From IMG/VR virus record IMGVR_UViG_3300023199_000048, positions 1 through 26,249 of that record: a DNA stretch of 26,249 nt; one strand, given 5' to 3'. This stretch comes from a virus. A program made the position numbers and the translations under genes. Below the pieces are notes generated by a model. That model was not told the DNA's origin, ran no database searches, and saw only the letters and a list, made by a program, of their open reading frames with translations. Position 1 is the stretch's first letter; the number at the start of each line of letters is the position of its first letter. This document shows, in pieces, positions 4,584 to 23,301 of this stretch.

Positions 4584-4795
4584 GCCGGCGCCTCAAGGAC
4601 ATGTTCGCAGACGCGCAGGTCCGGCTCATCCTGGAACAGGCGGCGGCGGTAGGCCATGGCGTCCTGTTCCGCCTGGAACCGATGCGCCTTGAAGGCGTCC
4701 CTCGTCCAGCCGAAATCCGACGTCAGATACATCGGGGCGCACCCCGGGCCCTTCTCGATCAGCCATACGTATTTTTCGACCATACCTGCCCTCAT
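4580..4795 (-). CDS. Small hypothetical protein
   Basis: The protein is 71 aa from the ATG at 4795, which overlaps the connector stop by ATGA. An alternative start lies at 4783 (MVEKYVWLIEKG). It contains a compact aromatic fold-like stretch (YLTSDFGWT) and a Gln/Arg-rich helix (FKAHRFQAEQDAMAYRRRL). The sequence resembles small accessory proteins that sit among phage head genes, but I do not recognise the family. Overlaps at both ends show it is a genuine member of the operon. Confidence 0.6.
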   Translation of the reverse strand: MRAGMVEKYVWLIEKGPGCAPMYLTSDFGWTRDAFKAHRFQAEQDAMAYRRRLFQDEPDLRVCEHVLEAPA

Positions 4796-5373
4796 GCCAT
4801 CGGGAACGCGCCGGCGCCGGCGGTGGCGGTGAGCCAGTCGAACACCGCCTCGCGCGCCGCCTGGCGTTCCGCGCCGGTGGCGGCCGTCCAGGAATAGTCG
4901 CCCGCCTTCTCGGATTTCAGCGCGCCGCGGTCGGACACGTCGATGGCCATCAGCCGGATCACCGCCTCGTCGCGAAGGCCCGCCACGCCGACGGGCGTGT
5001 AGGTGACGCGCACCAGCGGCGCCCAGTGCCGCCGGCCGTTGGTGCCGTCGAAGAGACGCTGCAGCGTGCGCCCGCCATGCAGCGCGCGCCAGTCATCCGC
5101 CGCCAGCGTGGTTTCATTGGCTGCATCACCGCTCCAGCCCGGCTCGATCTCCACGACGGTCACCGCCTGCGCGGTGTCCATCGGGCGCGCGAGCCGCAGC
5201 GTGCTGCGGTCGCGCGTCCAGCCGTCGGCCGGGTTGCCGAATTCCACGGTGATCGCCCCGGCCGGGCCGAGGCGCGCGTCGATCTCGGCCGTGACCGCGT
5301 CGATCATCGCCTGCAGCTCGGTATCGGACAGGTCGGTGCCCGTGCGCTCCTTGACCCGGTCGATCAGCGCCAT
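4792..5373 (-). CDS. Head-tail connector protein (HK97 gp6-like)
   Basis: The protein is 193 aa from the ATG at 5373. The N-terminus (MALIDRVKERTGTDLSDTEL) begins a helical region with an AEIDARLG motif. A beta-rich middle follows, then the C-terminal helix pair (EAVIRLMAIDVSDRGALKSEKAGDYSW). Proteins of the gp6/gp15 connector class start with this kind of helical bundle, attach below the portal and stabilise packaged DNA. It is the first conventional head-tail joining gene after the capsid block, followed by the adaptor and gp10-like genes, which fits. Confidence 0.7.
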   Translation of the reverse strand: MALIDRVKERTGTDLSDTELQAMIDAVTAEIDARLGPAGAITVEFGNPADGWTRDRSTLRLARPMDTAQAVTVVEIEPGWSGDAANETTLAADDWRALHGGRTLQRLFDGTNGRRHWAPLVRVTYTPVGVAGLRDEAVIRLMAIDVSDRGALKSEKAGDYSWTAATGAERQAAREAVFDWLTATAGAGAFPMA

Positions 5374-5376
5374 GCA

Positions 5377-5631
5377 TCAGCTCTCCGGCACCGGCTTCGT
5401 CGCTGCCTTGACGGCCCACATCGCCGCCTCCTCGGCCGCCGTCATGGCCAGGGCACGGCAGCGCATGCGCTCCGCTTCGCGCGCGCTCTCGGCGGTGCTG
5501 GATGCGGCCTGCATCTGCACCTCCGCCTCGATGATGTCGATCAGGTCGGCGGCGGCGCGCTTGATGCGGTCGACGCTTGTGTCGCCGGAGGGATTGAAGC
5601 CGATGCCGACACGATATTTACCGGTGCTCAT
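5377..5631 (-). CDS. Acb2/Tad1-like helical-hairpin protein, candidate anti-defence sponge
   Basis: The protein is 84 aa from the ATG at 5631, with AGGAG upstream. A short N-terminal motif (KYRVGIGFNPSG, residues 5-16) precedes two predicted helices, about 17-45 and 48-78. The second ends EEAAMWAVKAATKP. This KYRVG..FNPSG plus A(M)WAVKA layout matches small phage proteins I associate with the Acb2/Tad1 hairpin family. Members of that family bind cyclic nucleotides made by CBASS or Thoeris defence and stop the signal. That link is from memory of the family, not a search. The gene lies between the SH3-like gene (9 nt upstream) and the connector gene, and has no obvious structural role. It could instead be a minor head protein. 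Confidence 0.55.
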   Translation of the reverse strand: MSTGKYRVGIGFNPSGDTSVDRIKRAAADLIDIIEAEVQMQAASSTAESAREAERMRCRALAMTAAEEAAMWAVKAATKPVPES

Positions 5632-5640
5632 GAAACTCTC

Positions 5641-5943
5641 CTAAAGCTTGGGGCCGGATGTGCGGGGCGGCGGGATGTCCGCCCCGGTGCGACGCTGGCT
5701 GCGCTCGACGACCTGGTCGACCAGCTTCTCGACGCGCTCGACATCGAACCAGACGCCGTCTTTCAGCTCGTTGTCGCTGTCGGAGGCGGGCAGGACATAA
5801 ACCTGGTTGCATCCGGTCAGGTGCTCGGCCCGGCCAAGAACGATACCGGTGAACCCGCTGAGCGTGTCCTTGACCTTGTCGCCCATGGCGATTCCGCCGA
5901 AAGCATCGTTGTCTCCGAAGCGCCGCTGAAATATCCGCATCAT
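5641..5943 (-). CDS. SH3-like phage protein, possible partner of the Acb2/Tad1-like gene
   Basis: The protein is 100 aa from the ATG at 5943, which overlaps the HhH gene stop (ATGATG). The conserved domain begins at residue 20, so the ATG at 5886 is a real alternative start. The core (MGDKVKDTLSGFTGIVLGRAEHL, read in two parts, then GCNQVYVLP and GVWFD) matches a widespread phage family of small SH3-like barrels. The spacing GDKVKD, then SGF.GIV, then GCNQ, then FD..R.E is diagnostic of that group. The residues after about 80 form a Pro-rich tail. Tad1 proteins combine a helical hairpin with a beta core; together with the next gene this pair could supply both halves, but that is hypothesis only. 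Confidence 0.6.
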   Translation of the reverse strand: MMRIFQRRFGDNDAFGGIAMGDKVKDTLSGFTGIVLGRAEHLTGCNQVYVLPASDSDNELKDGVWFDVERVEKLVDQVVERSQRRTGADIPPPRTSGPKL

Positions 5944-6392
5944 GCGGTGCCCTCGGTCATCGCCATGGCGGCGGCGGTCCAGCCGGCCCAATCGGCGGTG
6001 GCGCCGAGCCCCGCGACCTCGGGCGGATCGTTCGGGTCGACCTCCGCCAGGGCCGTGAAGCTGCCCAGGCCCGCCGTGCCCAGGACCCGGGCCGTGGCCG
6101 CGCCGATGCCCTTGATGGCGGTCAGGTCGTCGACGCTGGTATTGCCGGATTTGTCATCGCCTGCCTTGCGCTCCTTGTCGGCCGGAACCTTCTTCTCCTT
6201 GGCGGCCGCCTTCTGCGCGGCTGAGCCCTTGACGAACCCGTCCGAAAGGCCGAAGCGTTCGGCGGCCTCGGCCGGGATGCGGTGCCCCGGCGCGGCATAA
6301 AGCGTGGCGGCGCGCTTGTCGCCCTCGGCCACGACGCGCTTGCGGTCCGATGTCAGGTACATGCGCTCCTGCGCGATGGTGAAACGTGCCAT
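5940..6392 (-). CDS. Helix-hairpin-helix protein in the capsid region
   Basis: The protein is 150 aa from the ATG at 6392, one base after the previous stop. The first 50 residues (MARFTIAQERMYLTSDRKRV) look like a small beta-rich capsid-associated domain. A Lys/Ala-rich linker (about 55-85) follows, then a helix-hairpin-helix motif at 88-118 (DDLTAIKGIGAATARVL). HhH motifs bind DNA backbones non-specifically. In this location the protein could be a head-joining or decoration protein, or a DNA-contact protein near the portal. I do not know the specific family. Confidence 0.6.
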   Translation of the reverse strand: MARFTIAQERMYLTSDRKRVVAEGDKRAATLYAAPGHRIPAEAAERFGLSDGFVKGSAAQKAAAKEKKVPADKERKAGDDKSGNTSVDDLTAIKGIGAATARVLGTAGLGSFTALAEVDPNDPPEVAGLGATADWAGWTAAAMAMTEGTA

Positions 6393-9289: not shown

Positions 9290-11341
9290 CTACTCGTCGT
9301 CCTCGTCGTCCCCGAAATGGGGCGAGAAGCTCAGGGTTCCGTTGGGGTGCTCGTTTGCGGCCATCTCCTCGGCCTCGGCCGCCGTCACGATGGTGCCGTC
9401 GCGGGCGATGTGACTGGGGGTCGACCGGTCGGGGCCGAGGCGGCCGTCGAACACGATGAAGCGCTCGACGCCCTCGTGCCTAGCCCGCTGGACGGTCGAG
9501 ACGTTCTGCGCGTACTTGGTCTCGGTCCGGGCGATGGTGCGGGCGCGGGTCTCGGCGCTGGTCCAGGGGCCGCCCTCCACCTGGTCGCGAATGCGGGCGG
9601 CGAGCTGTTCCGCACCCTCGCCCTCGGCGCGGCCGTCGGCCAGCGCATCGAAGATCGCCTTGCGCGACTGATCCTCCAGATCGACGAGCCCGGCGCGCCG
9701 GCCGCCGGCGCCGACGACGGCGCGCGCCACCGGGTCGGGCAGGCTGCCCGCCAGCCCCGCCAGCTCGCCCGCCGCCGCCACGTCCTGCGCGACCGCGAGA
9801 TACTGCGCCTCGTAGAGTTCCTTAAATGCAGCCTGGTGCGCCTCGATTCCCATCGCCTTGAGGATCGCCCTGACCAGGGCCTCGTCGCCGGCCGCCTTGG
9901 CGGCCTTGGGCAACTCCGGGCGCGCGGCCTCGGCGGCGTCACGCGCGAGGGCCTCGAAAAAGTCCTTCAGGCGCGGTTCGAAGGCGTCGCGAAGCCGCTC
10001 TTCCCCGGCCCGCAGGCGGCGGATATACGCCTCGCCCCGGCTGATGGCAGCGCGCGAGGCGCGCGCCTTTTCGCCCCGCCGCTTGGGCGCGTCGCCGCCG
10101 CCCGGATCGCGTGGCGCGGCACCGTCGGGTACCTCGATCGCCGAGAAGGGGCGCAGATAGATGCGGTGGCTGGCGTCGACATCGAGCCCGTTGGCCTCGC
10201 GCGCCTCGGCCACCATTGCCCAGCCGCCCTGGACCATCGTGTTCCAGCGCGTCGCCTCCTTGTCCTTGTCCTCGGAGAGCGCCAGCACCTCGCTTGTGTC
10301 CCAGCTGATGTCGAGCCCGCCCGCGGCCCCGAAATCCGGCAGCAGCGACCGCTGCGCCTCATCGGCCAGCGTCCGCGCCAGCGGCAGGATGCCGTTATGC
10401 CAGGCGAGCTTGCGCAGCTCGGACATGGTGGCGCCGACCTTGGTCTGCTGCAGCCCCGCGCCGAAGCCCACGACCGCCGCCGGGATGCCGAGGCAGGCGC
10501 AGACCCGTTCCTCGGCCACGTCGCGGGACGCCGACATATCCATTTGCTGCGGGTTGAAGCCGTAGGGCGATACATCCGTGGGCGCGCCCATCACCAGCGG
10601 GGCGCCGCGATTGTCGCCGCCGAACGCCTCGCGGAACCACTGCTTGGTGGCCTCGACATCCTCGGGCGCGGGCATCGCCCCGCCCTTGGGGGAAATCACC
10701 ACGCCCGGCACGCCCATGTTCCGCAAGAGCGCCGCGACGAAGTTGGACGTTTCCAGGTCCATGAAGATCTCGCGAAGCACGCCGCCGATCGGCGAGAGCC
10801 CGAGCCGCGGATCGCGCGGGTTCAGACCGGCCCGGAAATGCACCACGTCCTCGGGCATCAGCCGCATCGGCGCCAGCCCGCCGCCGGGCCGGTATATATA
10901 ATGTGTCAGGAACTCGCTGCCGTCCTCGCTGCCCTTGGAATCCATCGTCCAGTGCGGCACGTACCAGAGCTCGGCCGGCCGGCCGGCGCCGTTGCGGACC
11001 TTGATCCAGTAGGCATTGCCTGCGACGCACCAGCTCCAGACCGTGGCATGCCAGAGCGCGACGTCGCCGTAGAACGGATTCGGCCGCGCGATGAGCTGCG
11101 GCAGCGGATGGTCGGGTCGCTCTTCCACCTGCCCCGTGCGCTTGCGCTGCCGGACTACCAGCCGCGCCTCGGGCAGGGCGCGCGCCATCCACTGCACCGG
11201 CGCGGTGACGACCGAGGCGTCGAGCGTATCGCCCACCTCGCGGGCATAGTCGACCTTCGTACGCTTCAGGAACCGCCCGACAAAATGGCCGCGGGGGGCG
11301 TGGCGCATGGCGCCAAGCGCTTTGGAGAGGCTCTTAAACAT
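9290..11341 (-). CDS. Portal protein fused to a MuF-type head morphogenesis domain
   Basis: The protein is 683 aa from the ATG at 11341, overlapping the terminase stop by 8 bp. Residues 1 to about 400 are an HK97-type portal: VTAPVQWMARALPEARLVV, then GNAYWIKVRNGAGRP, ELWYVPH, and LGIPAAVVGFG. A charged linker follows (about 420-450), then a helical region. A SPP1 gp7/MuF-like domain ends the protein: IARTET at 603-608, a Gly-Val segment, FDGR at 631-634, and HPNG near 665. The usual HPNCRC zinc-type motif is altered to HPNGTL. Most phages encode the two proteins separately; HK97-type portals average about 400-450 aa, so this is a natural fusion rather than a start-site error. Confidence 0.88.
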   Translation of the reverse strand: MFKSLSKALGAMRHAPRGHFVGRFLKRTKVDYAREVGDTLDASVVTAPVQWMARALPEARLVVRQRKRTGQVEERPDHPLPQLIARPNPFYGDVALWHATVWSWCVAGNAYWIKVRNGAGRPAELWYVPHWTMDSKGSEDGSEFLTHYIYRPGGGLAPMRLMPEDVVHFRAGLNPRDPRLGLSPIGGVLREIFMDLETSNFVAALLRNMGVPGVVISPKGGAMPAPEDVEATKQWFREAFGGDNRGAPLVMGAPTDVSPYGFNPQQMDMSASRDVAEERVCACLGIPAAVVGFGAGLQQTKVGATMSELRKLAWHNGILPLARTLADEAQRSLLPDFGAAGGLDISWDTSEVLALSEDKDKEATRWNTMVQGGWAMVAEAREANGLDVDASHRIYLRPFSAIEVPDGAAPRDPGGGDAPKRRGEKARASRAAISRGEAYIRRLRAGEERLRDAFEPRLKDFFEALARDAAEAARPELPKAAKAAGDEALVRAILKAMGIEAHQAAFKELYEAQYLAVAQDVAAAGELAGLAGSLPDPVARAVVGAGGRRAGLVDLEDQSRKAIFDALADGRAEGEGAEQLAARIRDQVEGGPWTSAETRARTIARTETKYAQNVSTVQRARHEGVERFIVFDGRLGPDRSTPSHIARDGTIVTAAEAEEMAANEHPNGTLSFSPHFGDDEDDE

Positions 11342-22595: not shown

Positions 22596-22744
22596 TCCGC
22601 GGCCTCCCCGGTGTGATAGTCGTGATCGCCGCCGAGCACCTCCAGCGCCGCCGTCACCCGCGCCAGCGCGAGCAGGAGAAGGGCGATCAGAACAAGCGGC
22701 ACGCCCAGCCCGGCGAGGACGATTATGATCTGCAATGTCGTCAT
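22592..22744 (-). CDS. 50-aa single-pass membrane protein
   Basis: The frame runs from the ATG at 22744 to a TGA at 22592. It overlaps the methyltransferase stop (ATGA) and the ParB-like start (ATGA), and has AGGAGG about 7 nt upstream. Residues 4-28 form a strong transmembrane helix (LQIIIVLAGLGVPLVLIALL and onward). The remaining 20 residues are soluble and acidic. Start signal and overlaps at both ends make it a real gene despite its size. The function is unknown; small early membrane proteins of temperate phages often block superinfection. Confidence 0.75.
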   Translation of the reverse strand: MTTLQIIIVLAGLGVPLVLIALLLLALARVTAALEVLGGDHDYHTGEAAE

Positions 22745-23301
22745 GACGTTGCCTCCTGCATGTCGGTGAATTTCCGTGTCTCGTTGCCCTGGACCGTCCA
22801 GCCGGGGCGCTCTGCCCGGGCGAAAAGTTCCAGCTTGCGTGCATCCGGATAGGCCGCCTCTGCGGCCTCGTGGATGGCACCCGGCTTGCGGCTATGCTGG
22901 CGCCGCGGCGCCTCGATCACGGAATCGGCGAAGAGCGGACGGGGGCAATGCGGGCGGCGGTGCGTGCCGATCAGCAGCAGCTCATGCCGGTTCCGGACCC
23001 AATAGCCGGTGCCGATACGGTCCTTGATCCAGACGACCTGGCTTTTGTACCGGAACCCCCACAGGTCCATCACCGCCAGCGCGTCGGGCAGCATCGGGGC
23101 AGTGGCCCAAAGCAGCAGCAGGCAACTATCGCCAACGCAGAGGTGCACCGGCATTTCGGCGATCTCGTCCGCGGTCATGCAAGGATAGTGGGCCCTGGCA
23201 TTCCGCCCCGGCCGCCTCGCGCTGTTTGACGCGAACCGCCACGGCGGATCGGCCAGGATCACGTCGAAGGGGCCAGCGGGAAGCTCAATAGCGCCGCTCA
23301 T
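22741..23301 (-). CDS. MT-A70 family N6-adenine DNA methyltransferase
   Basis: The protein is 186 aa from the ATG at 23301, overlapping the preceding stop. The catalytic DPPW motif is at residues 18-21 (VILADPPWRF). Other family features are YPCMTADEIAEMP, LLLLWATAPMLPDAL, GFRYKSQVVWIKD, and RNRHELLLIGTHR. It is compact, as is usual for phage members. It probably methylates adenine in DNA, either to protect phage DNA from restriction or to mark it for replication control. No cognate restriction enzyme lies nearby, so it is an orphan methyltransferase. Mu's own DNA modification gene (mom) is unrelated. Confidence 0.92.
   Translation of the reverse strand: MSGAIELPAGPFDVILADPPWRFASNSARRPGRNARAHYPCMTADEIAEMPVHLCVGDSCLLLLWATAPMLPDALAVMDLWGFRYKSQVVWIKDRIGTGYWVRNRHELLLIGTHRRPHCPRPLFADSVIEAPRRQHSRKPGAIHEAAEAAYPDARKLELFARAERPGWTVQGNETRKFTDMQEATS

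Follow-up and report, generated by a model that had tools for sequence, protein, structure and literature searches.

We have examined a 26,249-base virus record (the window; this is the whole stretch of DNA analysed, and it may be a fragment) and found that an 84-amino acid protein encoded in its head operon genuinely belongs to the Acb2/Tad1 hairpin family. The protein is probably an Acb2-type sponge, one that would bind cyclic oligonucleotide alarm signals and block CBASS-type effectors, and its gene would be cargo carried within a Mu-like phage's head operon. The Acb2 family, its mode of action and its broad distribution among phages have already been published, and the family is already defined in Pfam. 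What is mildly new here is the repeated lodging of the hairpin gene in Mu-like head operons, together with a subgroup of the family that carries an FNPSG loop.

The window encodes a MuA-type transposase, MuB, a terminase, a portal with a fused Mu F-like domain, a prohead protease and an S24-type repressor, and the phage is Mu-like by this gene set. On the minus strand, the genes of the head region follow each other in the order major capsid protein (Phage_capsid), an 88-amino acid protein, a helix-hairpin-helix (HhH) protein, an SH3-like protein, the hairpin protein and the head-tail adaptor, or connector. The features at issue are these:

4792-5373, minus strand: head-tail adaptor (connector), the downstream neighbour (phrog_442, E 6.8e-5)
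5377-5631, minus strand: Acb2-type hairpin protein, 84 amino acids (PF24729, phrog_717, structural model and BFVD fold matches)
5632-5640, minus strand: spacer of 9 nt, read from the sequence; TAGGAGAGTTTC is the preceding SH3 stop plus this spacer, and includes the hairpin gene's Shine-Dalgarno sequence, AGGAG
5641-5943, minus strand: KOW/SH3-like small barrel, 100 amino acids, the adjoining neighbour (phrog_16275, 61.8 bits; five-strand model)
about 5940-6392, minus strand: HhH protein, the upstream neighbour in the head operon (HHH_5, 26.8 bits against a cut-off of 27)

A sequence-only reading of this DNA had described two small adjacent genes between the HhH and connector genes, and both open reading frames lie there, with all of the quoted motifs (KYRVG, FNPSG, MWAVKA, GDKVKD and GCNQ) present. 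The position of the HhH gene between the capsid protein and connector genes is conserved in relatives, and 23 relatives of the head-tail adaptor were found. The 4 genes from HhH to connector are packed in an operon-like manner. The HhH stop and the SH3 start form an ATGA overlap; the next junction, TTTAGGAGAGTTTCATG, consists of the SH3 stop TAG, then the AGGAG Shine-Dalgarno sequence, then the hairpin ATG; and the hairpin TGA is separated from the connector ATG by 3 nt. Elsewhere in the window, we observed a portal protein fused with a Mu F-like domain in a single 683-amino acid open reading frame (9290-11341, minus strand; Phage_portal at residues 43-384, Phage_Mu_F at 563-667) and, in the early region, a gene for an MT-A70 family methyltransferase (22741-23301, minus strand).

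The sole Pfam match of the 84-residue protein was PF24729 (Acb2_Tad1_hairpin), at 47.7 bits against a curated cut-off of 27 (E 1.8e-12), and its best viral family was PHROG 717, at 40.6 bits. The latter family also recognizes proven Acb2 proteins, namely PaMx33 Acb2 (114.8 bits) and T4 Vs.4 (94.5 bits), both of which match PF24729 as well. Relatives of the protein were encoded in 515 of 550 candidate stretches from IMG/VR, and the gene had no match in 14 control genomes; with the Pfam E-value, these counts exclude chance as the source of the assignment. Searches of other kinds gave less. A tblastn search with the hairpin protein against 50,697 phage records returned none at E 0.01, PADLOC and NCBIfam scans returned nothing useful, and a single-sequence search of the PDB gave chance matches only. 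In a profile search of the PDB, Acb2 homolog 43 and Vs.4 did appear, at insignificant E-values (0.22 and 0.5), and this result was not used alone. Weak sequence scores against the solved Acb2 proteins mean little, because even PaMx33 Acb2 retrieves T4 Vs.4 at no better than E 0.032.

Structure prediction pointed in the same direction. An AlphaFold2 model of the 84-residue protein, made with 21 sequences (pLDDT 93.5), has helices at residues 3-8, 18-37 and 46-77 and no strand, and hence is without the N-terminal antiparallel beta-sheet of Tad1. The modelled layout matches that published for Acb2, which is a short N-terminal helix followed by two long antiparallel helices, with no beta domain (PMC10419184; PMC12043709). 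In a Foldseek search of 350,542 PDB chains the first match was T4 Vs.4 with cGAMP (probability 0.72, 26% identity), with a poor E-value. Direct comparison of the model with T4 Vs.4 gave a Z of 7.0, a value that unrelated two-helix proteins also reach, so that comparison of hairpin folds alone is not decisive. In the viral fold library BFVD, the first two matches are annotated as Acb2/Tad1 hairpin (E 8e-6 and 2e-3). The link to this family that the sequence-only reading had proposed was thus borne out, with profile searches placing the protein in PF24729 and structure prediction giving a helical hairpin.

The known Acb2 proteins used for comparison were those of Pseudomonas phages PaMx33 (gp24) and PaP2 (p26; PDB 8h2j, 8h2x) and Vs.4 of T4 (PDB 7uq2). 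The window protein resembles them in its Pfam and PHROG families, in length (84 amino acids, versus 93 and 89) and in helical layout; its gene is embedded in the head operon, in contrast to PaMx33 acb2, which comes after the structural genes and is encoded on the opposite strand. PF24729 also covers Tad1. Likened to Tad1 by family and published layout, the protein has in common with it the family of the C-terminal helical hairpin domain, but its 84-residue chain is predicted to do without the N-terminal antiparallel beta-sheet. Because that sheet is absent from the model, CBASS-type signals would seem a likelier target than those of Thoeris.

We counted residue conservation over 67 distinct relatives of the 84-residue protein. 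Positions G4, F12-N13-P14, V20, I31-D32, R57, A62 and E67 are invariant among them; the invariance of the MWAVKAAT stretch is partly an artefact, since the search was seeded in part with this peptide. In PaMx33 Acb2, Y11 and K26 reportedly belong to the dinucleotide site, and R67 is said to belong to the trinucleotide site. Three MAFFT modes and hhalign aligned K26 with K24 of the window protein, and R67 with R57; K24 is kept in 66 of the 67 relatives and R57 in all. Y6 of the window protein was aligned with Y11 in only 2 of the 3 MAFFT modes. The N-terminal tyrosine of T4 Vs.4, which also aligns with Y6, is Y8; together with F82 it is a dinucleotide-site residue, F82 stacking on the ligand base (PMC12657218). 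The change T68M in the T4 protein lowers binding (PMC12657230); T68 aligns with T64, which is kept in 62/67 relatives. The position of F82, in contrast, is occupied by T78 in the window protein. Differences were also seen in the FNPSG loop, which stands against LSQEE in PaMx33 and KPHTE in T4, and in which FNP is invariant (67/67). Judged from these alignments, the putative ligand site is largely, though not wholly, kept, and the preferred ligand could therefore be another than for T4 or PaMx33 Acb2. A search of the open-access literature found no report of ligands for the FNPSG subgroup.

These differences bear on an alternative that we consider unlikely, namely that the protein is a sponge of the Acb2 fold that chiefly binds something other than a CBASS dinucleotide, either a Thoeris gcADPR isomer or a cyclic trinucleotide (for example cA3; CBASS, some type III CRISPR). 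The span of PF24729 across Acb2 and Tad1 hairpins would accommodate it, the invariant FNP that sets the loop apart from its PaMx33 and T4 counterparts hints at another ligand preference, and R57 is invariant while F82 of T4 is not kept. Yet a Tad1-like N-terminal beta-sheet is missing, and K24 and T64, which align with known dinucleotide-site residues, are kept. A related and likewise doubtful extension is that the FNPSG subfamily as a whole (the 515 IMG/VR relatives) forms a group of sponges with a distinct ligand preference, and that late placement in a head operon would serve against defences set off at a late stage, for instance when capsids are produced.

The tight packing of the gene between head genes might instead suggest a minor accessory protein of head assembly or DNA packaging in which the hairpin fold is coincidental. 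We find this improbable from a comparison of 66 distinct connectors with an upstream HhH gene, in which genes no more than 40 nt apart were scored as abutting. The HhH gene abuts the connector gene, with nothing between them, in 39 of these operons; in the remaining 27 the two are separated, mostly by other small genes. Only 4 of the 66 have a hairpin gene, which diverges in sequence among them and occupies one of two positions. It stands alone in the HhH-connector gap in L084/L098 and shares that gap with the SH3 gene in the window; in L096 and L160 it directly follows the connector, and the L160 hairpin passes PF24729 at 67.1 bits. Between the window and these relatives, the hairpins are 48, 40 and 33% identical, whereas the connectors are 54-59% and the capsid proteins 53-61% identical. 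The hairpin closest to the window's (65% identity) is on a contig where no head-operon gene was found, and none of the window's capsid, HhH or connector genes occurred in the flanks examined of the other 79 viral hairpin relatives. The varying positions, the greater divergence of the hairpins than of the connectors and capsid proteins, and the location of the closest relative on a contig with no head-operon gene found argue for separate gains of a mobile accessory gene and against a structural part. The hairpin gene is probably accessory cargo in the late operon of a Mu-like phage.

The adjoining SH3-like gene raises another alternative, put forward in the sequence-only reading, that of a split Tad1 or two-component inhibitor in which the barrel would provide the beta portion and work jointly with the hairpin. 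The two genes do adjoin, and in Tad1 two helices follow a beta part (PMC12043709). The assignment of the 100-residue protein as an SH3-like barrel was sustained: although no Pfam family matched, its model is a five-strand barrel (strands within residues 23-75, mean pLDDT 71) with disordered tails. Its fold, however, resembles the KOW/SH3 barrels of HspQ, the Spt5/NusG KOW domain and R67 DHFR, and a profile search of the PDB with the SH3 family matched nothing. Proteins of the phrog_16275 type conserve G21, D26, G30, G33, G44-C45, Q47, W65, D67 and R70; single-protein scans for relatives found few. The gene is surrounded by replication and nucleotide-metabolism genes in RcKai, PMBT3 and Shewanella phage 1/44; in L109 it has lysis genes on one side and methyltransferase/terminase genes on the other. 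No hairpin accompanies it in these, whereas the window copy adjoins one. No PF24729 match was seen anywhere in the 8 other SH3-bearing records (four phages and four viral contigs), and an SH3 gene was near the hairpin at 0 of 80 hairpin loci (flanks of up to 5 kb per side, shorter on small contigs). Also, L084/L098 carry the hairpin alone in the same slot. For want of linkage in these loci and records we set aside both the split Tad1 and a working pair as very improbable indeed; nothing in these comparisons or in the PDB profile search marks the barrel as a detached half of Tad1, and the SH3-like neighbour appears to be an unrelated bystander of the hairpin.

We note several further observations on these loci. 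Other small genes fill the HhH-connector gap in L126, L130, L132, L136, L164 and L176, and several of them look like one beta-rich family (e.g., ...FLHVKNGATDCVVTVQ...). An Acb2-hairpin gene is also present in a Rhodobacteraceae metagenome-assembled genome, CATOSB01 (L219-L225, at about 5908-6183 in each), where the hairpin-bearing stretch occurs in at least 7 near-identical copies of over 8 kb each, on seven contigs. The copies could represent a multicopy transposable phage, or a set of related prophages that binning brought into one genome. The alphaproteobacteria Camelimonas, Defluviimonas, Paracoccus and Pseudoruegeria (L206-L209, L215) have hairpin genes that share 56-58% identity with the window's, and sequence relatedness suggests an alphaproteobacterial host for the window phage.

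To return to the Acb2-type sponge, which we favor, the proposed action follows that of the known proteins. The hairpin gene would use the transcription of the head operon together with its own Shine-Dalgarno sequence, and presumably would be expressed late. By analogy, the 84-residue protein would assemble into a compact oligomer, a hexamer in known Acb2, which would bind host cyclic oligonucleotide alarm signals tightly and without cutting them. With the signals sequestered, CBASS-type effectors would stay inactive and infection would continue.

These results provide an annotation backed by tests for a protein to which generic phage databases assign no function, and they indicate that Acb2-type sponges travel as cargo in the conserved head operons of Mu-like phages. 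Gaps of this kind in the head region may be a good hunting ground for other counter-defence genes. Should the FNPSG group prove to have a different ligand, the known binding range of viral sponges would be widened.
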